Source of the DNA: Liolophura sinensis
Lineage: Eukaryota; Mollusca; Polyplacophora; Chitonida; Chitonidae
Reading direction: 5' to 3'
Assembly (NCBI RefSeq): GCF_032854445.1
Contig: NC_088302.1
Location: 57,328,237 to 57,392,236, forward strand
Length of the DNA: 64,000 nucleotides
A program made the translations under genes and the position numbers. The notes beneath the pieces were generated by a model, which saw only the letters and a list, made by a program, of their open reading frames with translations, did not search any database and was not told the DNA's origin. Positions 3,511 through 50,734 of the stretch are shown here, piece after piece. Every line of letters begins with the position of its first letter. Positions within the stretch are counted from its first letter, which is position 1.

Positions 3511-5314
3511 TTATTTTTTCTTGTGTAACAAGTTGTATTCACGAGTGGCCTTCTTGGCGCTGGTTAAGACTTCACTTGGTGGTTCAAATTGGTGACAGTT
3601 CGCTAGTTTGATGGTCATCAAAGAGGACAGCATGCCCTCTACTCCCAGCGATCCTCGAAAAGCAGTTTTGTTTTTTCTCACCATTGAAAATACCCTCTCC
3701 TCGCCAGCATTGGAATGTGGTAGGATAAGTATCAATTTAGCCACTTTACTCAACCTTCCAAACCTAGAGCTGCCGTCTACTAATTTAAGAGAGGAAAGAT
3801 GACCCCAAATGACATCCATCCGGAAATAAGACGAAGTCTCGTCCAGTTCCTGGTCATTATCATCTTCAGTAGGTTTGACGCGGGCGCTGTCCCAGATTTG
3901 TCCTGGAATGTGACTTTTTTCCAGCATTTGATATTCCACAAACTCTTCTTGGAGCTTCTCGATCTCATTCGTTGTTGAGGGGAGATGGTGTGGAATTTTT
4001 TTAACGAAGAATTCAATATCATCAAATCCACTCTCATCTTTCCTGAAGAAATCAACGAACTGGGCGTGCAGAAGCAGGTCGTCATTTAGTGGAAGTTTTG
4101 CAAGACATTCTTTTGTAGCTTTCATGTAGAATTGACGCACTGCCAAATAGAACTCAGTAACTTCCCTTGGTGATACGTCACCATCATTCAACAACTTCTG
4201 AACTTTCTGTTTTGTCACAAAACCAATCAAGAGCTGATCATCCTTCAGTTGATTCATTGTCTCAGAATAGTTGACACTCATCAGATCAATCCCGGCAGCT
4301 TTCATATGATGAATGGTGATGAACTTCCCCATCAACTTCATCAGAAATCTGCGGAGCTGGTGGTAGATTGCGTAAATACAAGGGTCTTCTCTTTGAAGGA
4401 ACCTATTCACGGCTGTGAACGTTGGCAGGACAACGTTGTAGAACAGTAAATAGATTTCTGTCATTGGATCATTGAACAGATCTTTCAATCGTTTGAAACG
4501 AGGTATACTCTCACTGTTTGAGAGGAAGTAGCTCTTCAGGGCGGGGTACATTTGAAGAATTCTCTTCACAGCTATTTCCAGACTTAGCCAACGTGTATTA
4601 ACATGTTTTATCACTTGACGATACTTGACATCACAGAAGTCTGCAAACTCAACAAACATTGACTTTCTTTTTGTACTTTTGTCAAAATAATAAAAGACAT
4701 CAATGCACATATCCTCAGCGTCAAAACCAGAAAAGTCAGAAAATGAACTAGATGCCCTACAAGCCACATTGTGCACAAGATGACATGGGCACCCCATGAA
4801 ATAACAATCAGCGTTTTGTTGTTTTACCCTTGTAAATATAGAGTTCCTAACCCCAAGATTAACACTGTTGTTGTCGACACCAAAGCTAACACAGTTGATC
4901 CACGGGATTCCATTTGAGTTTAGAACCTGGTCGATTTTATTGAATATCGCTTGAGCGGTCGCTGAATCCTTTAGTGGCACACATGTCCAAAAATCGGCTT
5001 TCCACTCTGCCGCAGCTCACATCAAAAATCCGCACTGTTACGGGATTCATTTTGTCTAAACCTACATCATTGGAGCCATCCGTAAGTAGCGAATAAGGGT
5101 TGTTCTTCATGACACCAACAAGTTCCCTCAGAAAATAAGGTGCGATGGAACCGTTTATCATACACGTTGATTTTGTTGCTGCCGATGCATACTTCTTCGC
5201 AATTTGAGAATCGGGGAACATATCTGAGAAAAGCGGACTTAAATGATTTGAGAATACCAAGGGAATGTTTTGATTGGCCAACAGCGTTGCCATCTTAACT
5301 TCTGCACGAATCAC
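3511..5314 (-). pseudogene. hAT transposase exon 2, frameshifted
   Basis: The exon begins after a TTTTTATATTACAG acceptor (ends 5315) and reads VIRAEVKMATLL, a conserved start of the core in this transposase-like family. It continues through MFPDSQIAKKYASAATKST, then, after the break, GCPCHLVHNVAC and FDKSTKRK, to a C-terminal hATC dimerisation region (NAGEERVFSMVRKNK, then LSSLMTIKLA). The frame breaks near 4980-4988 within ATGTGTGCC. The exon is 1804 nt, two short of a multiple of three, so loss of one TG dinucleotide from a TG run is the simplest explanation. Otherwise it is open (about 600 codons). The host copy probably cannot make full-length transposase. Alternatively this is a sequencing slip, since everything else is intact. 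Confidence 0.82.
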
Positions 5315-5398
5315 CTGTAATATAAAAATACATTGATATTTGAATAAGCACAGCACTTATATGAAAACAATAATAGCATGTCCATGGTTTTAATGATT

Positions 5399-5643
5399 GT
5401 TTGATTGATTGGAGTTCTCCAATCGTGCTCCAGATTATTTCACTCATATGATAGCGTTAATGTGGCAGGATACCGGGCGGTGCCCGGCAGGAACCCGCAA
5501 CCTCCTGCAGGTTGCTGGCAAACCTTAATTCGCACGTAAAGCTGGAGACAAAGTCAACGGGAACTGAATATGAACTCACAACCTCATTGGTGTGCGCCTT
5601 CAGCGATCATTGTGCGTTGCACGGTAACCGCTCGGGCACGGAA
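5399..5643 (-). mobile_element. Old SINE copy in hAT intron
   Basis: A diverged copy of the window's tRNA-derived SINE: TTGATTGATTGGAGTT tail at 5399, a GGGCGGTGCCCGG-like middle, and a head ending near 5643. It lies inside the intron between the two transposase exons. It is more decayed than the copies at 99 or 25978. Confidence 0.65.
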
Positions 5644-5996
5644 TGGTCTTAATGAAAAGCGTTGTTTTGTTTTCGAGGGTAGTAGGTGAGTGTGAGAATC
5701 ATTACATAATGGTTTTAATAAGGGAGATACATCGCAAAAACAAACAAATAATAGATAAACCTACTAATGTCCTTCTCAACACTCGGCAGTCAACGTAATT
5801 TATCGGTAGGCCCCTAACTGTACGTTCATACTGATATCTAACGATAATAATATACAGCACCGGTACTTCAAGGGTATATAATACCTTCGATGCAAATGCT
5901 CAAGTTTATATATAACATGATAATGGCCTATCGATAACAGAGGTATTGAAAAACAACGAAAAAATAAAGCTTCAAAAGATTAGAATTAAAAATCAC

Positions 5997-6329
5997 CTTG
6001 GTATTCAGGTCAGATGACTGGCCAGCAAACATACTGGAAATTGTAGGTTGTTTGCTCTTCGTCTTCACAAATTGCTGATGGGTATCACTGCTGATGTGAC
6101 GTTTTACACCAGTTTCCCCTTGATGGGAACAGGACAAATTTCGAGTACAAATATTGCAGTAAAACTTAGAACTGTCACCTTCCACAGCGCTGATGAATGG
6201 ATATTTCTTGATCCATTCTCTATTGAATTTGCTTTTGTAAGTGGCGGTTCCTGTATATTTGGTCCGTTTTACGGGTAGAATGTCGTCCAAGGTGGAATCG
6301 GAATCTGAACTGTGCCGCGTGTCTGACAT
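5997..6329 (-). CDS. hAT transposase exon 1 (zinc-finger N-terminus)
   Basis: This exon encodes 111 residues starting at the ATG 6329. An acidic/serine N-terminus (residues 1-20) is followed by a BED/TTF-like zinc finger: cysteines in YCNIC at about 58-61 and histidines in RHISSDTHQQF at about 78-84. Such fingers bind the element's ends. The exon stops in phase 0 at CAAG before a GTGATT donor (5996-5991). The reading frame runs on to 5928 only as intron read-through. The next coding exon begins at the acceptor before 5314. Confidence 0.8.
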
Positions 6330-6574
6330 TTTGACAGATCACGTGGTGCCAGATATTGCGTGTATCTGAAATGTCGTCGCAATCTCTATCCAGAGTTATC
6401 GTTCCTTTTCAATCAGTAGGTGAAGCAGGAACGACAACTCTAGGGAGGTTAAAAATAAACATGCGAAATTCCCTCGGATGACTGAAGACACGACCCCTAC
6501 TTTGGTCAGTTGAATATCATAAGCAAACCAACAATTACCAGTGTTTTTTTTTATTTTTTACCCTAAACCTTCAG

Positions 6575-6667: not shown

Positions 6668-8615
6668 ATACCCTCACAGGCCTGTCTTGTTCTGTGGGGC
6701 TGTGATTATGAATACATCTACTCTCACGGCCGTGTCTTGTTGTGTAGGGCTGTGATTACGTCTACATGTACCCTTACAGCCCTGTCTTGTTCCGTGGGGT
6801 TGTCATTCCGTCTACATGTACCCTTACAGCCCTGTCTTGTTCCGTGGGGTTGTGATTACGTATACATGTACTGTTATAGCCCTGTCTTGTTCTCTAGGAC
6901 TGTGATAACATATACATCTACCCTCACAGCCCTGTCTTACTCTATAGGACAGTGATTATGTATACAAGTACTGTCACAGCCTTGTTTTGTTCTGTGGGAC
7001 TGAGATTACGCATATATGTACTGTTACAACCCTGTCTTGTTCTGTGAGACTGAGATTACGTATACATGTACTCTTACAGCCCTGTCTTGCTCTATAGGAC
7101 TGTGATTACGTATACATCTACACTCACAGCCCTGTCTTGTTTTTTAGGGCCTTGATTACGTATACATATACCCTCACAGCCCTGTCATGTTATGTAGGAC
7201 TGTGATTACGAGTACATCTACACTCACAGCCTTGTCTTGTTGTGTGGGACTGTGATTATGAGTACATCTACAGTCACAGCCCTGTCGTGTTGTGTAGGAC
7301 TGTGATTACGTATACATCTACACTCAGAGCCCTGTCGTGTCGTGTAGGACTGTAATTACCTATAAATCTGCACTCACAGCCCTGTCATGTTGTGTAGGAC
7401 TGTGATTACGTATACATCTACACTCACAGCCTTGTCTTGTTGTGTAGGACTGTGATTACGAGTACATCTGCACTCACAGCCCTGTCGTGTTGTGTAGGAC
7501 TGTGATTACGAGTACATCTACACTCACAGCCTTCTTTTGTTGTGTAGGACTGTGATTACAAGTACATCTACACTCACAGCCCTGTCGTGTCGTGTAGGAC
7601 ATCTACACTCACAGCCCTGTCGTGTTGTGTAGGACTGTGATTACAAGTACATCTACACTCACAGCCTTGTTTTGTTGTGAAGGACTGTGATTACGAGTAC
7701 ATCTACACTCACAGCCCTGTCGTGTCGTGTAGGACTGTGATTACGAGTACATCTACACTCACAGCCTTGTTTTGTTGTGTAGGACTGTGATTACGAGTAC
7801 ATCTACACTCACAGCCCTGTCGTGTCGTGTAGGACATCTACACTCGCAGCCTTGTCTTGTTGTGTAGGACTGTGATTACGTACACATCTACTCCCACAGC
7901 CCTGTCTTGTTGTGTAGGACTGTAATTACCTATAAATCTGCACTCACAGCCCTGTCGTGTTGTGTAGGACTGTGATTACGAGTACATCTACACTCACAGC
8001 CCTGTTTTGTTGTGTAGGACTGTGATTACGAGTACATCTACTCCCACAGCCTTGTCTTGTTGTGTAGGACTGTAATTACGTATACATCTACTCCCACAGC
8101 CTTGTCTTGTTGTGTAGGACTGTGATTACGTACACATCTACTCCCACAGCCCTGTCTTGTTGTGTAGGACTGTAATTACCTATAAATCTGCACTCACAGC
8201 CCTGTCGTGTTGTGTAGGACTGTGATTACGAGTACATCTACACTCACAGCCCTGTTTTGTTGTGTAGGACTGTAATTACGTATACATCTACACTCACAGC
8301 CCTGCCTTGTTGTGTAGGACTGTGATTACGTACACATCTACTCCCACAGCCCTGTCTTGTTGTGTAGGACTGTAATTACCTATAAATCTGCACTCACAGC
8401 CCTGTTGTTATGTGTAGGACTGTGATTACGTATACATCTACACTCAGAGCCTTGTCTTGTAGTGTAGGACTGTGATTACCTATAAATCTGCACTCACAGC
8501 CCTGCCTTGTTCTGTAGGACTGTGATTACGTATACATTTACACTTACAGCCCTGTTTTGTTGTGTAGGACTGTGATTACGTATACATTTACACTTACAGC
8601 CCTCTCTTGTTTTAT
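6668..8615. repeat. 50-bp minisatellite, right part
   Basis: About 39 units of the same 50-bp repeat as 2556-2723. Units in 7200-8500 are nearly identical and include shortened units around 7600 and 7840 that lack about 20 bp. Blocks such as 7871-8010 recur around 8111-8250, showing duplication of several units at once. Confidence 0.92.
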
Positions 8616-10109: not shown

Positions 10110-10345
10110 GTACAGGATGTTAGACACACTTTAAACAGTATGTGTAGGACGTTAGACACACTTTAAACGGTATGTGTAGGACGTTCAACATACTTTTAAC
10201 AGTATGTAGAGGACGTTCAGCACACTTTTAACGGTATGTAGAAGACGTTCAGCACACTTTTAACGGTATGTAGAAGACGTTCAGCACACTTTTAACGATA
10301 TGTAGAAGACGTTCAGCACACTTTTAACGGTGTGTACAAGAACCT
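10110..10345. repeat. 32-bp minisatellite, 5' flank
   Basis: About seven units of roughly 32 bp (key words GACGTTCAGCACACTTTTAAC and GGTATGTAG). It lies directly before the 3' splice site of the first coding exon of the IFI44-like gene. Each unit contains a GGTATGT, a moderate donor-like word. Confidence 0.85.
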
Positions 10346-10390: not shown

Positions 10391-10934
10391 TAAAACAACA
10401 GCCACGAGAACAACTTAAGCACCATGAACGGAAAACTAACAGCTGAACAGAGAACTCAGCTGAAACAGTGGATTGGAGAAGAAAGTAAAGGTTTCCGCTT
10501 ATTGTACAGGATATCCAGGGATGGCTGTGCTGCAGATGTCTTCCACCAGAAATGTAATAACCAAGGGCCGACGGTCACTGTGGCCTATAACACCTCCGGC
10601 TATATCTATGGTGGTTACACCAGTCAGTCGTGGACGTCTAGTGGAACATACGTCCAAGATGGCAAGGCTTTCTTGTTTTCTCTGACCAACCCACAGAAAT
10701 ACCCTGTGAACATCACCGCCAAATCTGTATACTGCAACACGTCTTACGGACCTACATTTGGAGGAGGACATGACCTACTCTTTTTCACTGGCACCATCCA
10801 GAATGTCAGAAATGTCTTCACGCTAAACACACAATCAAGTTTCGGCAATTCTTATACATCACACGGACATAGCATCAACAACCTTACAGGTGGTGTGTAC
10901 AAGGTCTCTGAGCTGGAGGTTTACGCTCTGACAG
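10391..10934 (+). CDS. IFI44L: IFI44-like coding exon 1: TLDc domain
   Basis: The exon starts after a TTACCTGTTTCAG acceptor at 10390, so 10391-10423 is 5' UTR and at least one noncoding exon lies upstream. The ATG at 10424 has an A at -3 (CACCATGA context). It encodes nearly the whole TLDc module (FRLLYRISRDG, DVFHQKCNNQGPTVTV, then ELEVYAL at its end). It ends in phase 1 at ACAG before GTAAGG. The frame continues to 11086 only as intron read-through. Confidence 0.9.
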
Positions 10935-13900
10935 GTAAGGCTCAAGTACTCCTTTTACTGGGGTATAGTGACTTACTAATACAGAAGCCTTCAAATCATA
11001 TGCCGCTCTATTCCATGGCCTCCCTGGAGGACAGACAAAAGCACTGCGGACAAATCCTCCGGCGGACAAAATTTTGGCGGACATAAGCCCCTCGAGCAGT
11101 ATTGTGTATATGGTAAAATGACATAGTTGTTTGAGAAACCTTGAAACACTTTCCCTGAGGTGATGTTTTAGATTTCAATATATGTTTGCAATCAACAGAA
11201 CCCACCTTACTCCTTCAATCGCCATTGACAACAATGTTTTTGACAACATCGGAGAGAGTTATATATCTCTCAGCGGCATACAAGATGCTCAACCTACATT
11301 CCAGGCTTATATGAAAACTACAGAAGCCTTGCTGTATTGCAGCTTGTGTTAGGTGTTTTTCCTATTCTGAAAAACACACGCACGCACGCACGCATTTACA
11401 TGGTTTCAACCTCAGAAAACAAAACGTGCCTGATTCAAAATCTTTCAGAGTGTAGATGTTCAAAATGATGCAACCAACATTCATTTTTCCAGATTTCGGA
11501 AAAATTCGTCCTACCCAGGGGTTAAACCACTAGTCTACTCTCGGGTTGGTGATACAGCGGTCGTCTCAATTTTACGTTGGTACGGCTCTCGGGTTGTGAT
11601 GATGAAGTGGTCTGTTTTTATCCTGACCCTTAAGTCAGATAATCCGTAAAATTAATGAATACAAACAGAAGAAACTGGTGTACTTTACAGTTGATTCATT
11701 TCTTATTTCAGATGCAGTTACCGACCAGTGGCGTAAAACCCCAACCTGGGATGATAAGGTATGTCCTCATTGTAACAGCGTAAAACCACAACCTGGGATT
11801 ATAAGGTATGTCCTCATTGTAACAGTGTAAAACCACAACCTGGGATTATAAGGTATGTCCTCATTGTAACAGCGTAAAACCCCAAGATGGGATGACAAGG
11901 TATGTCCTCATTGTAACAGAGTAAAACGTCGCCTTGGGATGACAATGTGTGTCCTTACTGTAACAGAGTAAAACGTTCACTTGGGATGATAAGGTATGTC
12001 CTCCTTCTAACAGCGTAAAACCCCACCCTCGGATGACATGGTATGTCCTCATTGTAACAGCGTAAAAGCCCAAGCTGGGATGACAAGTTATGTCCTCATT
12101 GCAACAGCGTACAACCCCAACCTGAGAAGACAAGGTATGTCCTCATTGTAATAGCGTAAAATCCCAACCTGGGATGACAAGGTATGTCCTCATTGTAACA
12201 GCGTAAAATACCAACCTGGGATGACAAGGTATGTCCTCATTGTAACAGCGTACAACCCCAACCTGAGAAGACCAGGTATGTCCTCATTGTAACAGCGTAA
12301 AATCCCAACCTGGGATGACAAGGTATGTTCTCATTGTAACAGCGTAAAATCCCAACCTGGGATGACAAGGTATGTCCTCATTGTAACAGCGTAAAATACC
12401 GACCTGAGATGACAAGGTATGTCCTCATTGTAACAGCGTAAAACCCCAGTCTGAGAAGACCAGGTATGTCCTCTGTGTAACAGCGTAAAACCCCACCCTC
12501 GAAAGACAAGGTATGTCCTCATTGTAACAGCGTAAAACCCCAACCTGAGAAGACAAGTTATGTCCTCATTGTAACAGCGTAAAACCCCAACCTCGGATGA
12601 CAGTGTATATCTTCATTTTAACAGAGTAAAACGTTGACTTCGAATGATAGGGTATGTCGTCATTGTAACAGCGTAAAACCTCAACTTGGAATGATAAGGT
12701 CTGTCTTCATTGTAATAGCGTATATCCCATCCTAGGATGACATGGTATGTCCTCATTGTAACAGAGTAAAACCCCAACCTGGGATGACAGTGTATGTCTT
12801 CATTGTAGCAGCATTAAATCCCAAGCTGGGATGCCAAGGTGTGTCTTCACTGTAACAGAATGAAATGTCGACTTGGGATGATAAGGTATGTCCTCATTGT
12901 AAAAGAGATAAACCCCACCCTTGGAAGAAAAGTTTTGTCCTTATTGTAACAGCGTAAACCATAAACCTAGGATGACATGGTATGTCCTCCGTTTAACAGT
13001 GTAAAACCCCAACCTCACATAATAAGGTATGTCCTCACTGTAACAGCGTAAATCCCCACCCTCGGAAGACAAGGTATATCCTCATTGTAAAAGCGTAAAA
13101 CCCCAATCTGAGAAGACCAGGTATGTCTTCATTGTAACAGAGTAAAACCCCACCCTCGGAAGACAAGGTATGCCCTTATTGTAACAGCGTAAAATCCCAA
13201 CCTGGGATGACAAGGTATGCCCTTATTGTAACAGCGAAAAAGCCCAACCTGGGATGACAAGGTATGCCCTCACTGTAACAGCGTGAAACTTCAAGGTGGA
13301 ATGACAAGGTATGCCCTCATTGTAACAGCATAAAATACCGACCTGGGATGACAAGGTATGTTCTCACTGTAACAGCGTAAAAACCCACCCTGGGATTACA
13401 AGGTATGCCCTCATTGTAACAGCGTAAAAGCCCAACCTGGGATGACAAGGTATGCCCTCATTGTGACAGCGTAAAAGCCCAACCTGAGAAGACATGGTAT
13501 GTCCTCATTGTAACAGCGTAAAACCCCAATCTGAGAAGACCAGGTATGTCCTCTTTCTAACAGCGTAAAACCCACCCTCGGAAGACAAGGTATGCCCTCA
13601 TTGTAACAGCGTAAAACACCAACCTGAGAAGACCAGGTATGTCCTCTTTGTAACAGCGTATAACCCTATCCTCGGAAGACAAGGTATGTCCTCATTGTAA
13701 CAGGGTAAACCATAAACCTAGGATGACAAGGTATGCCCTCATTGTAACAGCGTAAAACTTTAAGGTGGGATGACAAGGTATGTCCTCATTGTAACAGCGG
13801 AAAACTTCAAGGTGTAATGACAAGATATATCCTTATTGTAACAGCATTGAAGCCCAACCTGGAATGACAAGATTTGTCCATATTGTAACAGTGTAAAAGC

Positions 13901-16900
13901 CCAACCTAAGAACACAAGGTATGTCCTCTTTGTAACAACGTAAAACCCCACCCTTGGAAGACAAAGTATGTCCTCATTGTAAAAGTGTAAACCATAAACC
14001 TCGGATGACATTGTATGCCCTTATTGTATCAGCGTAAAACTTCAAGGTGGGATGACAAGGTATGTCCTGATTGTAACAGCGTAAAAACCCAACCTGGGAT
14101 GACAAGGTATGACGTCATTGTAACCGCGTAAAAGCCCAACCTGGGATGACAAGTTAGGGCCTCATTGTGACGTCGTAAAACTTCAAGGTGGGATGACAGT
14201 GTATGTCCTCGTTGTAACAGCTCAAAACTTTCAGGTGGGATGACAAGGTATGCCCTCATTGTAACAGCGTAAAACTTCAAGGTGGGACGACAGTGTATGT
14301 TGTCATTGTAACAGCGTAAAACTACAAGGTAGGATGACAAGCTATGCCCTGATTATAACAGTGTAAAACTTCAAGGTGGGATGACAAAATATCCCTTCAT
14401 TGTGACAGCGTAAAACTTCAGGTTGGCATGACAAGGTATGCCCTCACTGTAACAGTGTTAAACTTCAAGGTGGGATGACACGGATTCCCCTCATTGTAAC
14501 AGCGTAAAAGCCCAACCTGGCATGATAAGGTATGACCTCATTGTAACAGCATAAATCTTCAAAGTGGGATGACAAGTTATGCCCTCTTTGTCACAGCATA
14601 AAACTTCAAGGTGGGATGACAGTGTATGTCCTCATTGTAACAGCGTAAAACCCCAGCCTGGGATGACAAGGGATGTCCTCATTGTGTCAGCATAAAACTT
14701 CAAGGTGGGATGACAAGGTATGTCCTCTTTGTCACAGCGTAAAACTTCAAGGTGGGATGACAAGATATGTCCTCATTGTAACTGCGTAAAAGCCCAACCT
14801 GGGATGACAAGGTATGCCCTCATTGTAATAGCGTAAAAGCCTCACCTGGGATGACAAGGTATGCCTTCATTGTAACAGCGTAAAATACTGACCTTAGGTG
14901 ACAAGGTATGTCCTCATTGTATCAGGGTAAAACTTCAAGGTGGGATGACAAGGTATGTCCTCATTGTAACAGCATAAAATACCGACCTGGGATGACAAGG
15001 TATGTTCTCATTTTAACAGCGCAAAAGCCCACTCTGGGATAACAAGATATGCTTTCATTGTAACAGCGGAAAACTTCAAGGTGGGATGACAAGGTATGCC
15101 CTCATTGTAACAGCGTAAAAGCCCACCCTGGGATGACAAGGTATGACGTCATTGTAACAGCGGAAAACTTCAAGGTGGGATGACAAGGTATGCCCTCATT
15201 GTAACAGCGTAAAATACCGACCTGGGATGACAAGGCATGTCGTCATGGTAACAGCGTAAAACTTCAAGGTGGGATGACAAGGTATGCCCTCATTGTAACA
15301 GCGTAAAACTTTAAGGTGGGATGACAGTTTTTGTCCTCTTTGTAACAGCGTAAAACCCCAACCTTGGATGACATGGTATGTCCTCATTGTATCAGCGTAA
15401 AACTTCAAAGCCCAGTATGTCCTCTTTGTCACAGAGTAATACATCGACTTGGTTTGACAAGGTATGTCCTCACTGTAACAGCGTAAAACCCTGACCTGGG
15501 ATGACAGGATATGTGTTTTCGCAGCGTAAAACCCGAATATTTGAGGTAGGGGTGTTGAACAGGATTAGACCTGAAATTTTGATCCTCGGCTCCTAATGCC
15601 CAGGTGATGATGGTCGGGTGACGGTACTCGGATGGCAGTGTCCGGGTGATGATGCTCCGATGACGGTACTCGGGTGACAGTGTCCGAGTGATGATGCTCC
15701 GGTGACGGTACTCGGGTGACAGTGTCCGGGTGATGATGCTCCGGTGACGGTACTCGGGTGACAGTGTCCTGGTGACGTTGCCCGGGTGACGGTACTCGGG
15801 TGACTGTGCCCTGGTGACGATGGTCGAGTGACGGTACTCGGGTGACAGTGCCCTGGTGATGATGCTCCGGTGACGATACTCGGGTGACAGTGTCCGGGTG
15901 AAGATGCTCCGGTGATGGTACTCGGGTGACAGTGCCCTGGTGACGATGCCCGGGTGACGGTACTTGGGTGACAGTGTCCGGGTGAAGATGCTCCGGTGAC
16001 GGTACTTGGGTGACAGTGCCCTGGTGACGTTGCTCCGATGACGGTACTCGGGTGACAGTGTCCGGGTGATTATGCTCCGGTGATGGTACTCGGGTGACAG
16101 TGCCCTGGTGACGATGCCCGGGTGACGGTACTCAGGTGACAGTGTCCGGGTGATGATGCTCCGGTGACGGTACTTGGGTGACAGTGTCCTGGTGACGTTG
16201 CTCGGGTGACAGTGCCCGGGTGACGATGGTCGGGTGACGCTACTTGGGTGACAGTGCCCTGGTGACGGTACTCGGGTGACAGTGTCCGGGTGATGATGCT
16301 CTGGTGACGGTACTTGGGTGACAGTGTCCGAGTGATGATGCTCCGGTGACGGTACTTGGGTGACAGTGTCCGGGTGATGATGCTCCGGTGACGGTACTCG
16401 GGTGACAGTGTCCGAGTGATGATGCTCCGGTGATGGTACTTGGGTGACAGTGCCCTGGTGACGATGCCCGGGTGACGGTACTCGGGTGACAGTGCCCTGG
16501 TGACGTTGCCCGGGTGACGGTACTCGGGTGACAGTGCCCTGGTGACGTTGCCCGGGTGACGGTACTCGGGTGACAATGCCCTGGTGACGTTGCCCGGGTG
16601 ACGGTACTCGGGTGACAATGCCCTGGTGACGTTGCCCGGGCGACGGTACTCGGGTGACAGTGTCCGGGTGATGATGATCCGGTGACAACGGGTTCTTTGA
16701 AGACGATATGTCATCGATGTACACTTTGTACACTGTTCTCTTTACATGTAGCTGATGACGTCTCTGAAGGGCGCAGTTGAATGTTACAAACCTTACGAAG
16801 GTCTGAAGCTGAAAACTGTTAATCTTTTAATGATCGGTCCGGTTGGATCGGGCAAGTCAAGCTTTTACAACACCATCAGTTCCATCTTCCGAGGTCGGAT

Positions 16901-19900
16901 ATCGAGCCAGGCCCCGGCGGGCAGCGTGGAACACAGTCTGACCAGTCAGGTGAGTACTGAACCAGCTCCTGGAACTGGTAGTATATGTTGTTATTTGGGA
17001 AGACAGGAGCTCCATTTGCATTTTCTGTTATTCATTTGTTTATGTGTATAAGTGAAACTGTGTAAGCAAATTGATTATGTCAAGCGAAAATGTTTTATTT
17101 TTGATGCATTTCCAAAAAATATTGTTTTGTTGTATTTGTTGTATTGTTTGTTTGTACATAAGTAATTTATTAACTGGAAGTAATGAATGTGTGTGACTGT
17201 CACTCACACGACCGACCATGCCAAATCCAAAATCTACTATACATGTATGATGCCAGCCAGCGTCATTATTTACCTTATGCGATTATTTGTTTGAGTGTCA
17301 TCATTTTAACCTAACATCTGCTTCTAGATATTGCGTGGGCAGATCACATGGTTATGTGCGAGTTGGACAGTAACATCGTCTTGACGTTAAAAACTGTAAC
17401 ACCGTGAACCTGTCACTGTCACTGTGTCACTGTGACGGTGATGCTGTTAATGTGAAGGTGTCATTTTCACTGTGAAGATGTAACTGTCACTGTAAAACTA
17501 TCACTGTGACGGTGTGAAGGTGTCATTGTCATTGTGACGGTGTCACTGTCAGTATACAGGTATCAGTGTGAAAGTGTTGCTGTTACGGTGTCACTGTCAG
17601 TGTGGTGGTGCCACTTACATTGTGGAGGTGTCACTGTGATGGTGTTACTGTTAGTATGCATGTGTAACTGTCAATGTGAAGGTGTTATTCTCATTATGAA
17701 GGTGTTACTCTCAATGTGAAGGTGTTACTCTCATTATGAAGGTGTTAGTCTCAATGTGAAGGTGTCACTGTCAGTGTAAAGGTGTCATTGTTACTGTGAC
17801 GATGTCACTGGGAAATTGTTACTTCACTGGAAGGTGTCACTGTCAGTGTGAAGGCGTCACTGTCACTGTGAAGGGATCACTGTGACAGTGTTACTGTCAT
17901 TGTGAACATGTCACTGTGACGATGTTTTTGATAGTGAGAAGGTGTTACTGTCAATGTGAAGGTGTTACTGTTAGTGTTAAGGTGTCACTGTCATTGTAAA
18001 GGTGTCAAGGTCAATATGCAGGTCTCACTGTGATGGAGTTACTGTCATCTGTGAAGGTGTCGCTGTGACGGTGTTACTTTCAGTGAGGTTTAATGGTCAG
18101 TGTGAAGGTGAAACTATCACTACGAAGGTGTCATTTTTAGTGTGAAGGTGTCAGTGTGAAGGTGTTACTTTCATCGTGAAGGTGTCACTGGGATGTTGTC
18201 ATTGTAAGTGTAAAGGTGTCATTAGCAGTGTGAAAGTGTCATTAGCAGTGTGAAGGTGTCAGTGTGAAAGAGTCAGTGTGAAGGTGTTACTTTCAATGTA
18301 AAGGTGTCACTGTAACTGTGTCATTGTCATTGTGAAGGTGTCCTTACCATTGTGAAGGTGTCAGTGTGAAAGTGTTAGTGTGAAGATGTTACTTTCAATG
18401 TGAAGGTGTCCCTGTGATGGTGTTATTGTCAGTGTGAAAGCGTCATGGCTCTGCCCTGTTTCCTCCCACCTTAACGCTGGCCTCTGTTGTATAAGTGAAA
18501 TCTTCTTTAGGATGGCATAAAACACCAATCAAATAAATAAACAGTGAAAGTGTCATGGTCACTAATGCGTTATTGTACTAACTGATTGCGTGCTTCAGTG
18601 CTGCTTCCACTGTGTTGTGAAGTAATAAACTGTGGCATAATAAACTGTGGTGTAACAAACTGTGGAGTGATGAACTGAGGAATAAAGAACTTTGATTTAA
18701 TGAACTGTGAAGAAAAGAACTGTGGCTTTAGGAACTATGATATAATAACCTGCTGTGTAGTGAACTGTGGTGTAGTGAGCTGTGGTGTAATGAAATGTGG
18801 TGTAATGAACTGTGGTGTCATGAGCTGTGGTGTAATGAGCTGTGGTGTAATGAGCTGTGGTGTCATGAACTGTGGTGTCATGAGCTGTGGTGTAATGAGC
18901 TGTGGTGTGATGGACTCTGGTGTCATGAACTGTTGTGTAATGAACTGTGGTGTCATGAACTGAAGTGTCATGAACTGTGGTGTCATGAGCTGTGGTGTGA
19001 TGAACTCTGGTGTGATGAACTGTGGTATAATGAACTGTGGTGTGATTAACTGTGATGTAATGAACTGTGTTGTAATGAACTGTGGTGTAATGAAATGTGG
19101 TGTGATGATTTTAGGCGTCTTTTGCATCTCTTGGAAGCATACACTTTCAGGAATATAAGTTTTATGTAAATAAACACAACATGCACCATGATAGTGAAGA
19201 AGTTTGTCGATTGCAGTTCCGGAAGTACAGAGTCCTAGTGGGGGATGCTGGGAAGCCCACAAGCTTCCGGTTGTGTGACACTATGGGTCTGGAGGAGGGA
19301 CAAGGGATTGATTCAGTAGATGTCCCTTTTATCTTGGATGGAAATGTACCAGATATGTACCGGGTAAGACAGAAGGTTTTGTTTTGTTTTTCGTTTTTTT
19401 CTGTACATTTCAGATTTAAAATCATGAAGGTTACTAGTTTAGTAAATTGGTTCAACATGTCTTTGTCAAATCTGTTGAAGAAAGCCTAAACATGTAAATT
19501 CGATACTGGGGACATTTACTCGCATCAACACATTTTACTCGCATAGACAAAGCGGTGAAAACATTGTCCGAATGCTGGAGCGCTAATACAAAACTGTGCT
19601 TCACGGCCTTGTACATGTATGTCCATCACAAGGTTTTGTTGACGTTCACGATGTACCTACGCAGCGCAGACTGTACTTATGTCATATTGTGCTGTCCACT
19701 TATTATTAGCCATTATTTTCAGATTATCAGAAATTGCTGTCCATTTCCCCATAACCTCCCACGTTTTCGTTGGCCTCTTCGACTGCTTGACTGCTTCAGG
19801 CGAGTAAAGTGCCCCGATGTTCGCGGTCTCAAATAGTAATAATATTTTTGAAATATAGTCAACAAACAGGGTGCTGACATTTCCAGATTAATAACGATCT

Positions 19901-22900
19901 TGTGTGAATTTCCTTTTCTTATTCTTTTCTGTTTTAGTTCAACCCAGCATCTCACGTGACACCAGAGATCCCAGACTTCAATAAATGCCCACAGCTAAAA
20001 GACAAAATTCACTGTGTGGGATTTGTACTGAACAGCACCAAGGTAGAGGCGATGTCGGAGAAACTACTGTTGAAGATACAGTCTATCCGGCATCATATCA
20101 ACCAGAGAGGTGAGTCTATCAGGCATCATATCAACCAGAGAGGTTAGTCTATTCCACATTATATCAACCAGAAAGGTGAGTCTATCTGGCATCATATCAA
20201 TCAGAGCGGTAAGCCTATCTGGCATCATATCAACCAGAGAGGTAAGTCTGCCCAACACCATATCAACCTGAGAGGAGAGTTTGTCCAGCACCATATCAAC
20301 CAGAGAGGTGAGCCTATCCAGCATCATGTCAGCCAGGGAGGTGAGTCTATTTGGCACCATGTCAGCCAGAGAGGTGAGTATATCTGGCATCATATCAACC
20401 AGAGAGGTGAGTCTATCCAGCATCATATCAACCAGAGAGGTGAGTCTATCCGGCATCATATCAACCAGAGAGGTGAGTCTATCCAGCATCATATCAACCA
20501 GAGAGGTGAGTCTATCTGGCATCATATCAACCAGAGAGGTGAGTCTATCCGGCATCATATCAACCAGAGAGGTGAGTCTATCTGACATATCAACCAGAGA
20601 GGTGAGTCTATCCTGCATCATATCAACCAGAGAGGTGAGTCTGTCTGACATATCAACCAGAGAGGTGAGTCTATCCATCATCATATCAACCAGAGAGGTG
20701 AGTCTATCCTGCATCATATCAACCAGAGAGGTGAGCCTGTCCAACACCATATCAACCAGAGAGGTGAGTCTGTCCGGCACCATATCAACCAAAGAGATGA
20801 GTCTATCCAACATCATATCAACCAGAGAGGTGAGTCTATCCAGCATCATATCAACCAGAGAGGTGAGTCTATCCAGCACTATATCAACCATAGAGGTGAG
20901 CCTGTCCAACACCATATCAACCAGAGAGGTGAGTCTGTCCGGCATCATATCAACCAAAGAGATGAGTCTATCCAACATCATATCAACCAGAGAGGTGAGT
21001 CTATCCATCATCATATCAACCATACAGGTGAGTCTATCCTGCATCATATCAACCAGAGAGGTGAGTTTTTCCAGCTTCATATGAATCTTAGAGGTGAGTC
21101 TGTCCAGCACCATATCAGCCAGAGAGGTGAGTCTATCCGGCATCATATCAACCAGAGAGTTGAGTGTGACCAAGACCATATCAACCAGAGAGGTGAGTCT
21201 ATCCAGCATCATATCAACCAGAGAGGTGAGTGTAACCAGGACCATATCAACCAGAGAGGTGAATGTAACCAGGGCCATATCAACAAGAGAGGTGAGTCTG
21301 TCCAAAACCATATCAACCAGAGAAGCAGCACAGTATCAGCCAGAGAGGTGAGTCTATCCAATACCATATGAATCATAGAGGTAAGTCTATTGGGCATCAT
21401 ATCAACATGAGAGGTGAGTTTATCCCACATCATATCAAGCAGAGAGGTGAGTCTGTCCAACACCATATGAACCTGAGAGGTGAGTCTGTCCAACACCATA
21501 TGAACCTGAGAGGTGAGTCTGTCCAACACCATATCAACCAGAGAGGTGAGTCTATCAGGCATCATATCGACCAGAGAGGTGAGTGAGTCTATCCGGCATC
21601 ATATCAACCAGAGAGGTGAGTCTATTGGGTGTCACATCAACCAAAGAGGTGAGTCCATCTGGCATCATGTCAACCAGAAAGGTGAGTCTGTTCGTCATAA
21701 TATCAACTAGAGAGGTGAGTCTGTCCAACACCATATCAACCAGAGAGGTGAGTCTATCCGGCACCATATCAACCAAAGAGATAAGTCTATCCAACATCAT
21801 ATCAATCAGAGAGGTGAGTCTGTCCAACACCATATCAACCAGAGAAGTTAGTCTATTCTGCATCCTATCAACCAGAGAGATGAGTGTGACCAAGACCATA
21901 TTAACCAGAGCAGTGCATCTATTGGGCACCATATTAACCAGTGTAACTAGAGGTGAGTGTAACCAGGACCATATCAACCAGAGAATAGAATCTATCCAGC
22001 ATCATATCAACCAGAGAGATGAATGTGACCAAAACCATATTAACCAGAGAAGTGATTCTATTCCGCATCATATTAACCAGAGAAGTGAGTGTAACCAGGA
22101 CGATATCAACCAGAGAGGTGAGTCTGTCCAAAACCATATCAACCAGAGAAGTGAGTCTATTCTGCATTATATTAACCAGAGAGGTGAGTGTAACCAGGAC
22201 CATATTAACCAGAGAGGTGAGTCTATTTCGCATCATATCAACCAGAGATGTGAGTTTGTCCAACACTATATCAACCAGAGAGGTGAGTCTATTCCGTATC
22301 ATATCAACCAGAGAGGTGAGTCTATTCCACATCATATCATCCAGAGAGGTGAGTGTGTCCAACACCATATCAAACAGAGAGGTGAGTCTATTCCACATCA
22401 TATCAACCAGAGAGGTGACTGTAACCAGGACTATTTGAACCAGATAGGTGAGTCTGTCCAGCGCCATATCAACCAGAGAAGTCAATCTATCTGGCAGCAT
22501 ATGAACAAGAGAGGTGAGTTTATTCCACATCATATCAACCAGGGAGGTGAGTCTATCCAACATCATATCAACCAGAGAGGTGAGTTTGTCCAACACCGTA
22601 TCAAATAGAGAAGTGAGTGTAACCAGGACCATATCAACGCAAGGGGTGAGACTGTCCAACACCATATCAACCAGAGAGGTGAGTCTATCCAGCATCATAT
22701 CAACCAGAGAGGTGAGTCTATCCAAAACCATATTAACCAGAGAGGTGAATCTATCTGGCAGCATATTATTCAGAGCAGTGCGTCTATTGGGCATCATATC
22801 AACCAGATAGGTGAGTGTAACCAGGACTATATTTACCAGAGAAGTGAGTCTGTCCAATACCATATCAACCAGAGAGGTGACTCTATCCGGCATCATATCA

Positions 22901-23844
22901 ACCAAAAAGGCGAGTCCATTCCACATTATATCAACCAAAGAGGTGAGTCTGTCCAGAACCATATCAACCAGAGAGATGAGTTTGTCCAACACCATGTTAA
23001 CCACAGAGGTGAGTCTATCCGGCACAATATCAACCGGAGAGGTGAGTCTATGTATCATCATATTGCTGGAAGATCTTCCCACCTACGTTCGGAGAGGAAG
23101 CCAGAATGAGCTGAACTTGAACTCACAGCAAACGAATTGGTGAGAGGCTCCTGGGTCACTGTGTCGCTCTAGCACGCAAAAAGTCAACGAGACAGGAAAT
23201 CGCTGTCCTCCTCGTACAAATTCAAGTCCATGTAAGACGTACCATCTGGAGAGCCTGTACTTTCCTCTAAATCCTGTGATAGCGGATTCACAATATATGT
23301 CTGTCGCGGCCATTGCTCTATACGGATTGCTTAAAGTTATATTCTAACAAATCATCCATAGTGAATGAAAAAGTTTGAGTCTGAACTCTTTGTTGAAGAT
23401 CTGTTGAATATACTAGCGTTCGTACGAGAACTGCCATAGGTCTGCCAAAAGAATCATTCTGACTCTCACTTGTAAACCGTTACCTCTCATCTTATATTTG
23501 GCATGTATGTTCGAGTACATGATAAAAGTTTTATGATCTTCTTGTTTATAGCAATCCCTATTGTGGTGTTGTTGACCAAAGTAGACCAGCTGTGTCCCAT
23601 GGTATTTGAGGATGTAGACGCCACTTTTCGAAGTACTGCTGTCAAGAACATGGTGGACAAGACCGCGGAGCTGGTGGGAGTACCACGTTCCCATGTGCTT
23701 CCGATCAAGAATTACGAGAGTGAAATTGAGTTAGATGTTAACGTCAACATCCTGGCACTTCTGGGATTGCGCCAGATGCTGTGGTTTGCAGACGACTACC
23801 TGTGTAACCAGGCGGACCTCCTCCAAAAAGAGGAGGACTCTTAA
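10424..23844 (+). CDS. IFI44L: IFI44/IFI44L-like TLDc-GTPase, six coding exons
   Basis: The coding sequence is the join of 10424-10934, 11712-11758, 16752-16949, 19217-19363, 19938-20109 and 23552-23844. That is 1368 nt, or 455 residues plus TAA, with all junctions GT-AG and phases consistent. Residues 1 to about 170 form a TLDc domain (NQGPTVTVAYN). Residues about 207-455 form a GTPase with P-loop GPVGSGKSS (215-223), CDTMG switch motif (272-276), IHCVGFVLN strand and TKVD base-recognition motif (367-370). Human IFI44 has the same order and about the same length (444), and ends with a matching LRRMLWAADDFL block (here LRQMLWFADDYL). Vertebrate relatives are interferon-induced cytosolic antiviral or growth-modulating proteins; the mollusc role is inferred. 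Introns 2, 3 and 5 are filled with minisatellites, two of which copy the upstream exon's splice donor. Confidence 0.92.
11712..11758 (+). CDS. IFI44L: IFI44-like exon 2 (47 nt linker)
   Basis: A very short exon between TCTTATTTCAG and GTATGT. It encodes DAVTDQWRKTPTWDDK (residues 171-186), the linker between the TLDc and GTPase domains. It enters in phase 1 and leaves in phase 0. Its last 28 nt are the start of the 47-bp minisatellite that follows. Exon length and repeat period are both 47, which appears to be coincidence because the first 19 nt of the exon do not match the unit. Confidence 0.85.
11731..15535 (+). repeat. 47-bp minisatellite carrying exon-2 donor
   Basis: About 80 units. The first copy's left edge is inside exon 2 (11731). 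Each unit equals the last 28 nt of exon 2 (starting GCGTAAAACC, ending GATGACAAG) plus the first 19 nt of intron 2 (GTATGTCCTCATTGTAACA). Verified period: GTATG at 11759 and again at 11806. Most units keep AAG followed by GTATGT or GTATGC. Variants include AACTTCAAGGTGGGATG and ACCCCACCCTCGGAAG types, arranged in mixed order. Confidence 0.95.
15595..16690. repeat. 42-bp minisatellite in intron 2
   Basis: About 26 units of 42 bp, each made of three 14-bp subunits of the form GGGTGACNGTNCTC. It ends about 60 bp before the exon 3 acceptor. Both other-strand frames are open because 42 is a multiple of 3, giving long artefact ORFs rich in TRTLSPEYRH. Confidence 0.92.
16752..16949 (+). CDS. IFI44L: IFI44-like exon 3: P-loop
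   Basis: The exon starts after TTTACATGTAG in phase 0 (LMTSLKGAVECYKPYEG), runs through LLMIGPVGSGKSSFYNTI and ends HSLTSQ before GTGAGT in phase 0. It carries the nucleotide-binding P-loop (residues 215-222). The internal ATG at 16755 is only the second codon of the exon, not the gene's start. Confidence 0.92.
16950..17395. other. Unique 5' part of intron 3
   Basis: Intronic DNA after the exon 3 donor with no recognisable element. It is T-rich around 17090-17160. Confidence 0.6.
17396..18440. repeat. Irregular ~18-bp minisatellite in intron 3
   Basis: A degenerate array built on GTGTCACTGTCAGTGTGAAG-like words, with frequent one- to three-base length changes. It is older or less homogenised than the other arrays of this gene. 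Confidence 0.85.
18448..18541 (+). mobile_element. SINE tail fragment in intron 3
   Basis: It reads CTCTGCCCTGTTTCCTCCCA, then TTGTATAAGTGAAATCTTCT, and ends in AACACCAATCAAATAAATAA. This is the 3' half of the window's SINE in plus orientation. Confidence 0.75.
18610..19115. repeat. 15-bp minisatellite in intron 3
   Basis: About 33 units of TGTGGTGTAATGAAC and close variants (GTCATGAGC). The 15-bp period leaves several frames open, giving artefact peptides such as NCGVMSCGVM. It ends about 100 bp before the exon 4 acceptor. Confidence 0.92.
19217..19363 (+). CDS. IFI44L: IFI44-like exon 4: switch region
   Basis: The exon is bounded by TCGATTGCAG and GTAAGA, 49 codons, phase 0 at both ends. 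It contains RLCDTMGLEEGQG, equivalent to the CDSLGL switch motif of human IFI44, and FILDGNVPDMYR, equivalent to FYILNGNIRDRY. Confidence 0.92.
19364..19937. other. Intron 4, unique
   Basis: A 574-bp intron of ordinary sequence between GTAAGA and TTCTGTTTTAG. It has no array. Of the five introns between coding exons, only introns 1 and 4 lack repeats. Confidence 0.75.
19938..20109 (+). CDS. IFI44L: IFI44-like exon 5
   Basis: The exon starts after CTTTTCTGTTTTAG with FNPASHVTPEIPDF and includes LKDKIHCVGFVLNST, a core strand conserved in IFI44. It ends KIQSIRHHINQR in phase 1 at AGAG before GTGAGT. The exon's last bases plus the donor are the seed of the 33-bp array that fills intron 5. A second donor (GTTAGT after 20142) would add 11 in-frame residues. 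Any later donor would include an in-frame TAG at 20145-20147. Confidence 0.9.
20077..23062 (+). repeat. 33-bp minisatellite carrying exon-5 donor
   Basis: About 90 units. Each unit is GTGAGTCTATCC followed by a CATCATATCAACCAGAGAG core, so each ends with the exon 5 terminus and begins with its splice donor. The first copy is exon sequence (20077-20109). Variants at positions 7-14 give SIRHHINQR, SIQHHINQR, CNQDHINQR and so on when read in the exon frame. A few units are 30 or 36 bp. Both strands have 250-415 codon open frames simply because 33 is a multiple of 3. Confidence 0.95.
23063..23191 (-). mobile_element. SINE head fragment in intron 5
   Basis: It contains GGAGAGGAAGCCAGAATGAG, a B-box region read as GAGTTCAAGTTC on the minus strand, and GTGAGAGGCTCCTGGGTCAC. 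It abuts the end of the 33-bp array directly. The tail half is missing. Confidence 0.7.
23552..23844 (+). CDS. IFI44L: IFI44-like exon 6: C-terminus
   Basis: The exon follows a TTCTTGTTTATAG acceptor and joins exon 5 as a split alanine codon (G plus CA). It reads AIPIVVLLTKVDQL, with the TKVD base-recognition motif. It continues through SHVLPIKNYESEIELDVNVN to LRQMLWFADDYL and stops at TAA 23842-23844. No AATAAA was found close downstream. Confidence 0.92.
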
Positions 23845-27579: not shown

Positions 27580-29140
27580 AGGTTAGATATGAAGGGATGA
27601 ATGCCGCTTGTGCCGCAGGCGATAGCCCTCTGACCAATGAGAAGTATCTCCAGATGTGACTGGAATGAAAATATGAATACTGCTCATGTCGCAGACGATA
27701 GACCTCTGACCAATGAGAAGTATCTCCAGATGTGACTGGAATGAAAATATGAATACTGCTCATGTCGCAGACGATAGGCCTCTGACCAATGAGAAGTATC
27801 TCCAGATGTGACTGGAATGAAAATATGAATGCTGCTCATGTCGCAGACGATAGGCCTCTGACCAATGATAAGTACCTCCAGATTTGACTGGAATGAAAAT
27901 ATGAATACTGCGCATGTCACAGACGATAGCCCTCTGACCAATGATAAGTATCTCCAGGTGTAAATGGAATGGATAGATGAATCCCTCTCGTGTCACAGAC
28001 GATAGGCCTCTGGCCAATTATGTGCATCTGCAGGGGTGAATACAATAGAGAGATGAGTGCATCTCATGCCACGGAGGATAAATCTTTCACCAATGAAATG
28101 TATCTACAGGTGTGTATGAAATAAAGAGAAGAATACGGCTCATGTCACTGAGGATAGGACTGTGCCCAGTAAAGTCTGACAGGTTTGTATGAAATGGAGA
28201 GATAAATACTTTTCGTGCCACAGAGGATAAGCTTCTCACAAATAATGTGTATCTGCAGGTGAGTAGGAAATGGAGGGAAGAACACCGCTTATTACACAGA
28301 GGATAGGACTCTGACCTATGATGTGTATTTACAGGTGTGTATGAAATGGAGAGAAGAATACCGCTCATGTCACAGAGGATAGGGCTTTGACCAATGATGT
28401 GTATCTACAGGTGTGTATGAAATGGAGAGAAAAATACCGCTCATGTCACAGAGGGTAGCGCTGTGATCAATGATGTGTATTTACAGGTGTGTATGAAATG
28501 GAGAGAATACCGCTCATGTCACAGAGAATAGGACTCTGAGCAATGATGTGTATTTACAGGTGTGTATGAAATGGAGAGAAGAATACCGCTCATGTCACAG
28601 AGGATAGGACTCTGAGCAATGATGTGTATTTACAGGTGTGTATGAAATGGAGAGAAGAATACCGCTCATGTCACAGAGGATAGGGCTTTGATCAATCATG
28701 TGTATCTACAGGTGTGTATGAAATGGAGAGAAGAATACCGCTCATGTCACAGAGGATAGGGCTTTGACCAATGATGTGTATCTACAGGTGTGTATGAAAT
28801 GGAGAGAAGAATACCGCTCATGTCACAGAGGATAGGGCTGTGATCAATCATGTGTATCTACAGGTGTGTATGAAATGGAGAGAATACCGCTCATATCACA
28901 GAGGATAGGGCTTTGATCAATCATGTGTATCTACAGGTGTGTATGAAATGGAGAGAAGAATACCGCTCATGTCACAGAGGATAGGGCTTTGATCAATCAT
29001 GTGTATCTACAGGTGTGTATGAAATGGAGAGAAGAATACCGCTCATGTCACAGAGGATAGGGCTGTGATCAATCATGTGTATTTACAGGTGTGTATGAAA
29101 TGGAGAGAAGAATACAGCTCATATCACAGCCGGTAGGCCT
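27580..29140. repeat. 76-bp minisatellite, two subfamilies
   Basis: About 20 units. The left subfamily (27580-28020) carries CTGACCAATGAGAAGTATCT. The right one (28020-29140) carries GATGTGTATCTACAGGTGTG. The two align over the whole 76 bp, for example GCTCATGTCACAGAGGATAG versus GCTCATGTCGCAGACGATAG. Right-hand units repeat a TATCTACAG|GTGTGT word, which looks like a 3' splice site joined to a weak donor. Confidence 0.9.
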
Positions 29141-29957
29141 TTGAGCAATGTTGTCTCTTGCCCACACGATTCCTGATTTCGGTAGAAAAGCTTCAAATGC
29201 ATGATTTGAATGCTATTTTCACCCAGTCACATAGAACATACCTTGCGTTCTGCCAGCATCATTGAAAACTGTTAACTGCTTCCTTTGAATGATTCTGTCC
29301 TATTTTCATACTTTGTATACTTTCTTAGTTCTTTGTGGTTTGAGGGAAACGTCGATTTGGGGAAATAACATGCGATTTGTGACCCTGGAACGTCCATCTT
29401 GATTGACGTCTGGTATATACAATATCTGTTTTGACTCAAAGATTCAAGTAAATTTGTCAGAGGTGGCTTTAGTGAAATAGTCCGCAGTACAAGTGGTAAA
29501 CACCAATTTAAAAAGTATTTGATGAACAAATGAGAAACACTCGAGGTCCAGTGCTTGAAATGAGTCCGCGGCTTGAATAATGTTACAGCAGACATAGATG
29601 TATCAACGTTTTGTAACGGCCAATGTCCAAAGCAGTCTCCAGTGTTTCTACTGAGTATAGTTGTTCATACGTACGCTACATGTAAGGAGACAAAAACCCA
29701 GAGAAACAACAGCAAAAATTTGCTTGACTAATACATCAGTTCTATTACAGTTCCAAATTCTTGTTACATGTACTTTGACGCGATCGCTATAACGCGGATA
29801 TAACACTCGTTTGGCTGACATGTGCCTTATTTACATTTTGTCATGCGCAGCACACGTATTATGGAAGGATATTGTGTACGGCAAATAAATGGTATGTTTG
29901 GAAAAGTGTATATCCACGTGTGATATGCACTACAGTTTGTGTATGACTATAAACAGA
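29141..29957. other. Unique spacer
   Basis: Ordinary AT-rich sequence. The open frames in it show no domain, signal or repeat that would support a gene. Confidence 0.5.
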
Positions 29958-32299: not shown

Positions 32300-32447
32300 G
32301 CCTATTGTAACATAAGAGCCACATAAGAAGAGAGCTGATGCGAAATTCTCGTCTGGATCATTCTGTCGCCAACATGATGGTATCCACCGCTTAAACGTCT
32401 TATCAGCTTTTTAACTCCTGTCCATTTTATCCTCAGTTCCTCGGCAT
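32300..32447 (-). other. 5' UTR part of gene A exon with upstream acceptor
   Basis: On the minus strand CCCTCAATATTTTTCAG ends at 32448 and is a good 3' splice site, 148 nt before the gene A start codon. An upstream ATG at 32447 is closed at once by a stop (ATG CCG AGG AAC TGA). Gene A therefore probably has at least one noncoding exon further upstream, in the direction of the 34-46 kb arrays. Confidence 0.5.
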
Positions 32448-49861: not shown

Positions 49862-50734
49862 CACGAACGCAAGTGGTTCTTGTTTACAACGTGATGGAAA
49901 GTTTGGGTGGGAGATGTAGTTTAAGATGTGCCAATGTAGGAGGGTGACGGCAAAATGGGACCAAGTTCCGGTGCGGGAAGTGCTGGTGTTTCTGACAGCT
50001 TTTGCCTTTGTGATAACTACGTGGTGTTCTTCATTAAGTTGCCACAATGTAAGAACAGATTCCCCGTTCCTGAGAATGTTACTGCTCTTATTCCGCCCAA
50101 AAGATAAGAAGCCGGGGAAGGATATGAATACATCCCATAGCCCAAGTTTTGTCCGCGGTTCCCATGTGGACTTGTTGACTGGTCACTCCTGTACCCGCTG
50201 TGAAAAGATCAAACACTTTGGATGTAGCCAAGGTTTACACATCAGATTACAGTTATGCACTACAATTAAACCATCCCCCAACCCAACCCCCACCCACCCC
50301 CATACACACACGCATTTTTTAACATCTGTCTACACAAAATACCCTAAACGTCTAAGCTAAACGTATAAGCTAATCATCACATCAATTTGTGAACATGTCA
50401 TCTTCCTCAATAGGGCGTGTACACCAAATGATCAAAGGGCATATGCAATTCCTACATGATGTGCCAACAACAATTTTGACGTGCTATACCAACAGGTATT
50501 CCCATGTGATATACCAACACCTATTCCCTCATGATATATCAACACCTGTGGACACTGAGCAATACATTCAATCCCTAGACACATACTACCCTAGATACAT
50601 TTAATGTCTAATCCCAGATTAATGGACAACGACACCGAACGATATATCCTATACTTCACAGATGACTGGACATGACACCGGGCGATACATTCAAGCCCTT
50701 GTCAGATATTACTGAGCAACGATATTAAACCATA
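49862..50734. other. Region upstream of gene B
   Basis: The presumed promoter/5' UTR of gene B. It has a CCCAACCCCCACCCACCCCC tract near 50279-50300, and from about 50590 diverged early copies of the 47-bp repeat. Plus-strand frames here are antisense shadows. Confidence 0.4.

Follow-up and report, generated by a model that had tools for sequence, protein, structure and literature searches.

In a 64,000-nucleotide stretch of the genome of the chiton Liolophura sinensis (Polyplacophora), hereafter the window (contig NC_088302.1; G000:C8:57328237-57392236), a gene for an IFI44-like protein was found to carry two minisatellites, each of which straddles a 5' splice site (donor). One consists of 81 units of 47 bp at the donor of exon 2 and the other of 91 units of 33 bp at the donor of exon 5, and the NCBI protein of this gene, P0001, joins its exons at the outermost donor of each array. 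These arrays were interpreted, with a probability of roughly 0.85, as 'mirages' in a mollusc, that is, as ordinary minisatellite growth across a splice site that is tolerated because the exon-proximal site is the one used.

The anatomy of the first array was determined with Tandem Repeats Finder (TRF) and by alignment of its units. TRF reported a period of 47 with 80.7 copies and 80% matches, while a wrap-around alignment resolved 81 units, the first of which combines the end of exon 2 (11731-11758) with intronic nucleotides 11759-11777, and the copy that follows exon 2 matched it over the 28 nt that precede the donor. These analyses agree that the unit is made of the last 28 nt of exon 2 and the first 19 nt of intron 2, as proposed in a first-pass annotation made from the DNA letters, and its description of a minisatellite in which the end of an exon is multiplied together with the 5' splice site was borne out. 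The figure of about 80 repeated donors given there was too high: the donor GT is present in 65 of the 81 units when gaps are allowed (62 without gaps), and the exact string AAGGTATGT occurs only 24 times, besides 29 exact matches to AGGTATGT, 41 to GTATGT and 39 to AAGGTATG[T/C]. Elsewhere in the window, both arrays excluded, AGGTATGT was found 0 times on the plus strand and once on the minus strand, and therefore its repetition is not due to chance. A search of the assembly (609,464,459 bases, 632 contigs) with a dimer of the unit, which skips common words, listed 41 places, all of them within the 47-bp array, whose units diverge by about 13% from their consensus. A copy of the whole exon was ruled out as the origin of the unit, the equal length of exon 2 (47 nt) being a coincidence.

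The 33-bp array is in frame with exon 5, and its final unit is partial. The GT is kept in 79 of its 90 full units, and AGGTGAGT occurs 57 times within it and 4 times on the plus strand in the remainder of the window. Judged by local alignment (score 10 versus a shuffled mean of 12), the 47-bp and 33-bp units are unrelated. In both arrays the authentic exon copy is unit 1, at the edge of the cluster, and the gene-model protein P0001 joins 11758 to 16752 and 20109 to 23552; the first of these junctions agrees with the one given in the first-pass annotation. A pair of donor arrays in a single gene had seemed very unlikely, but that estimate had used the expanded gene length; at the unexpanded length, array births are dense enough for the pair to be unremarkable. 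Two other IFI44-like genes, an inverted pair on contig C13 (L021-L026, G000:C13:10034001-10094000), have no array at the exon 5 donor. The minus-strand copy has a 46/57-bp array that begins at its exon 4 donor and includes about 2 nt of the exon, and the plus-strand copy is degenerate there; exon 2 of these paralogs was not located by protein search.

The proposed course of events is that a tandem duplication would have fallen by chance across the border of exon 2 and intron 2, that ordinary minisatellite turnover would then have expanded it to its present 81 units, and that exon 5 would have undergone the same process on its own, there with a 33-bp unit. In each case the copy that is continuous with the body of the exon would stay under purifying selection and remain the working splice site, and the other copies, lying in the intron, would drift and be spliced out. 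Arrays of this kind should be born at donors and acceptors alike whenever a duplication spans the splice site, with a frequency proportional to unit length, and would not be visibly purged.

The frequency of straddling arrays was estimated in 160 exons (320 match ends) sampled by protein-family match, blind to repeats. The sample comprised 60 of 81 listed matches to the myosin head (PF00063), 60 of 138 to the kinase family (PF00069; only matches of at most 363 nt) and 40 of 50 to TCP1 (PF00118). The myosin list was first filtered by open frame (48 of 60) and the 12 left out were then added; the TCP1 rows dropped were two long ones, one apparently intronless and seven tail rows. Most stretches in which an array or a copy of at least 18 of 24 bases had been flagged, together with a few that narrowly missed this threshold, were inspected by eye, and a script judged the remainder. 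Straddling arrays were detected in 14 of the 160 exons (myosin 5/60, kinase 5/60, TCP1 4/40). Relative to match ends the figure is 14 of 320, which is a minimum for the rate, since some match ends do not coincide with a true splice site. Nine of them lie at donors and five at acceptors (p = 0.42), their units measure 32-124 bp, and the exonic share repeated is about 115 nt at L060 and about 93 nt at L162 (TRF start 399, donor at 491). When exons were grouped into approximate gene clusters, 12 of 87 had a straddling array. In the first 120 exons, a copy of at least 18 of 24 bases was obtained in 2 of 240 draws inside exons and at 27 of 240 random flank positions. A stretch of 8 kb on G000:C8 near 53.41 Mb, apparently a single TCP1-family gene, has three matches on the same strand, each with a straddling array: L151 and L159 at donors and L160 at an acceptor. 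Arrays near but not across a splice site (L032, L043, L052, L054 and L122) were left uncounted, as were degenerate repeats starting at the donors of L049 and L052, which have no clear exonic share; those of L049, which are GTGGGTGTGGTCAAAGTG-like, begin right at the donor, besides the counted acceptor-side array of this exon.

Unit lengths were compared with a model in which duplications land at random and survive if they are confined to the intron or cross a single splice site, so that the likelihood of straddling a site rises in proportion to the length of the unit. The mean unit of the 14 straddling arrays was 67.9 bp, close to the size-biased mean of 67.1 bp for 53 arrays in 142 kb (resampling P = 0.44) and above their plain mean of 45.1 bp (P = 0.014); arrays in exon flanks were shorter (plain mean 36-43, size-biased 48-52). 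The lengths of the straddling units fit random placement.

Some results count against this interpretation. The 14 straddling arrays exceed the 4.3-4.9 expected from exon flanks or the 7.4 expected from the 142 kb (Poisson P = 0.0002-0.019), and placement may not be wholly random. The two weakest of the 14, L110 and L160, repeat only 5 uninterrupted exonic nt and a few, respectively. Codon changes in the 47-bp units, counted by occurrence, lean synonymous (155 of 407, or 38%, versus 20% of possible changes), such occurrences within an amplified array not being independent, and protein models can miss minor isoforms. The excess was read as modest, 2-3 times the random expectation, because genes are not independent and three of the 14 arrays appear to share one C8 gene; it perhaps arises because an exon-anchored array can never vanish completely.

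The excess speaks for an alternative in which splice borders would be favoured sites of minisatellite birth or survival, either through more breakage and duplication or through a selected exon copy acting as an unlosable seed from which the array regrows. In both arrays the units nearest the exon are also the most similar to it, identity to the exon copy declining with distance (rho -0.38 in each), a gradient that fits seeding from the exon end but equally plain edge effects, which alone can yield it. However, unit lengths agree with random placement, the edges of non-straddling arrays are scattered across the first 340 nt, and gene-to-gene overdispersion lies outside the model. The first 60 exons alone gave 5 straddling arrays versus 2.6-3.2 expected (P = 0.12-0.22), and the first 120 gave 10 versus 4.5-5.0 (P = 0.017-0.032). 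A preference for splice borders is thus regarded as somewhat unlikely, although it is the alternative that fares best. Its extension, in which exon borders would be minisatellite refuges where a selection-held exon copy reseeds the array, appears doubtful; nearly a tenth of exons would then have rows of spare splice sites, and some of these would give in-frame variants. One such candidate is donor 2 at 20142, the weaker-looking GAG|GTTAGT, which offers the sole stop-free in-frame extension of exon 5 and would add GESIRHHINQR to the GTPase domain.

The first-pass annotation had further suggested that units could serve as cryptic exons, 27-nt segments bounded by AG and GT being sometimes spliced in as nonapeptides that would lengthen the linker between the TLDc and GTPase domains without breaking the frame. 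The geometry on which this suggestion was built is present: 58 of the 80 downstream 47-bp units keep an AG 27 nt before the next donor, 45 of these are stop-free, and the bounded segment is phase 0 at both ends, exon 2 ending at phase 0. The commonest readings are RKIPTWDDK (5 units) and RKTSRWDDK (4), both among the peptides it listed, whereas exact RKTPTWDDK is encoded by 0 of the 80 downstream units. Stops, which it had also noticed, are carried by 13 of the 58 bounded units, so that stop-bearing unit types have been amplified too. The synonymous lean of codon changes would be in accordance with coding use, but 70 of the 155 synonymous occurrences trace back to a single inherited change, and leaving its column out brings the proportions to 25% versus 19%. 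Counted by kind, the changes observed in the nine codons comprise 14 of the 16 possible synonymous ones, 44 of the 61 missense ones and 3 of the 4 that create a stop, and the synonymous bias was not significant (14/16 versus 47/65 other changes; Fisher p = 0.33). The donor GT pair was not more conserved than neighbouring pairs (percentile 0.54 in the 47-bp and 0.62 in the 33-bp array). Introns of 20 nt between neighbouring units are too short, so that only distant units could serve, and read-through past donor 1 meets a stop at 11828 after exon 2 and at 20145 after exon 5. P0001 uses the outermost donor, and a nonapeptide isoform was not found among the 120 listed database proteins. A database search with the open frame of the 33-bp array (20148-20582) returned 0 of 2316 candidates at E <= 0.001, which is weak evidence since candidates were limited to 0.55-1.75 times its length. 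Use of the units as exons thus found no positive support, the sequence lends little backing to the nonapeptide idea, and we consider it very improbable.

Just as improbable is a decoy function, in which the repeated donor-like sites would titrate the U1 small nuclear ribonucleoprotein (snRNP) and tune splicing or premature polyadenylation of an immune-type gene. Predicted pairing with the U1 5' end equals or exceeds that of the real donor in 29 of 81 units of the 47-bp array and 49 of 91 of the 33-bp array (real donor included), and pairing that good occurs in 4.3% and 0.23%, respectively, of 3975 other plus-strand GT sites of the window. The GT columns are, however, not more conserved than their neighbours, as given above, and like arrays are found at acceptors too and in genes of the myosin, kinase and TCP1 families. 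An assembly artefact, conceivable in that arrays are hard to assemble and one assembly was examined, is the least probable explanation, given the roughly 13% divergence of units from consensus, which stuttering would not produce, and a high-fidelity (HiFi) assembly whose mean read of 8,347 bp (PMC11068029) exceeds the length of each array.

The host gene has six coding exons on the plus strand (Table 1). The N-terminal TLDc domain is the sole Pfam match of its protein, no GTPase family of Pfam having matched it, and is followed by a P-loop-like motif, GPVGSGKSSF in exon 3. In the protein database search (120 matches listed of 310), the best relative was P0001, named 'interferon-induced protein 44-like [Liolophura sinensis]' and identical across its 455 aa, while the other 119 listed matches showed 36-50% identity, most of the named ones being IFI44-like; a second named Liolophura protein was not among the 120 listed. 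A start of exon 4 at 19115, which would add 34 residues, was ruled out by P0001, and with the exon starting at 19217, the 15-bp array at 18622-19108 ends short of the acceptor. The assembly fits the one published in PMC11068029, and the species name was corrected in PMC12441733.

Table 1. Features of the IFI44-like gene and of its arrays (positions in the window), and sampled exons with straddling arrays
Feature	Position	Strand	Evidence or remarks
Exon 1, coding part, TLDc domain	10424..10934	+	Pfam PF07534, E 3e-24; donor CAG|GTAAGG; identical to P0001
Exon 2, 47 nt, DAVTDQWRKTPTWDDK	11712..11758	+	Donor AAG|GTATGT; agrees with P0001
47-bp array, 81 units, last 28 nt of exon 2 + first 19 nt of intron 2	11731..15514	+	TRF, alignment
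Intron 2, 4993 nt, mostly two arrays	11759..16751	+	
Further array in intron 2, 42/126 bp	15597..16686	+	TRF; stops short of acceptor at 16751
Exon 3, P-loop-like MIGPVGSGKSSF	16752..16949	+	Agrees with P0001
Exon 4	19217..19363	+	Start according to P0001
Exon 5	19938..20109	+	Donor GAG|GTGAGT; agrees with P0001
33-bp array, donor-straddling, last 30 nt of exon 5 + GTG	20080..23063	+	TRF, 90.6 copies
Exon 6, IPIVVLLTKVDQ... to stop	23552..23844	+	Agrees with P0001
Donor-straddling arrays, survey (n=9)			L037, L060, L044, L101, L110, L125, L151, L159, L162
Acceptor-straddling arrays, survey (n=5)			L049, L085, L090, L092, L160

Tandem arrays occupy about half of the window (1-64000; 25 merged arrays with a TRF score of at least 100, coverage 0.50), and the coverage of three other stretches was 0.13-0.27. 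Just 5' of the first coding exon, a 32-bp array with AACG|GTATGT at 10110-10336 is possibly located at the donor of an exon of the 5' untranslated region. Two tracts 4 kb apart (6669-8611 and 2612-2723) are built of related 50-bp units that contain an acceptor-like motif, TTGTTGTGTAG|GACTG in the longer tract and TTCTGTAG|GACTG in the shorter. They may be arrays on the acceptor side of an exon further upstream that is not annotated. A 76-bp array at 27616-29154 has a unit containing CTACAG|GTGTGTATG. The window also contains, on the minus strand, three galactosyltransferase genes (PF01762) with long open frames (31070-32410, 48398-50182 and 60355-61683) and pieces of a hAT transposase (3511-6338), with PF05699 in 3514-5016 and more open frames recognised by eye up to 6338.

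These results extend an amphioxus curiosity, described in a handful of genes, to another phylum and attach a frequency to it, namely 14 of the 160 exons sampled. Every array amounts to a natural experiment on the choice of splice site, in which dozens of near-identical competitors lie beside the real site, and the length bias makes the origin of straddling arrays a countable question; the arrays are also a hazard for gene prediction. A literature search, with subscription papers mostly outside its reach, found no report of boundary-straddling arrays in molluscs, and the accessible part of a Conus intron paper (PMC3862624) deals with microsatellites, not boundary arrays. The novelty lies in the phylum, in how many copies there are and in the frequency, the array type itself having been first described in amphioxus.

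Comparable structures are known from several systems. Human internal tandem repeats in segmental duplications (PMC2812944) likewise have units of about 30 bp and lie in some cases at exon-intron boundaries, but they average about 4 repetitions and are said to give novel introns and alternative transcripts, whereas the chiton gene model shows no such use. In the model of Rogers (cited in PMC3087553), introns are gained by tandem duplication of AG/GT proto-splice sites; segments bearing splice signals are duplicated in the chiton as well, but its gene model uses the outermost site alone and no new intron is seen. The closest likeness is to the mirages of amphioxus, tandem repeats spanning intron-exon borders in Adh3, the globins BflGb6 and BflGb9, troponin C and PGBD5 (PMC3087553, PMC3902484), which are minisatellite-type duplications at 5' or 3' exon ends with repeated AG/GT signals. 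BflGb6 has 6 and 3 units in two haplotypes (PMC3087553, PMC3902484), and reverse transcription PCR suggested normal splicing in the amphioxus cases (PMC3087553). In the published mirage cases considered, units measure 10-160 bp, a range that includes the 47 and 33 bp found here and the 32-124 bp of the sampled arrays; both chiton units join exon to intron sequence, the exonic share being 28 nt for exon 2 and 30 nt for exon 5, and both clusters have the authentic exon copy at their edge. The amphioxus examples come from a cephalochordate, with 2 to 7 copies where given, in contrast to the 81 and 91 copies of this mollusc and to their recurrence among its sampled exons.

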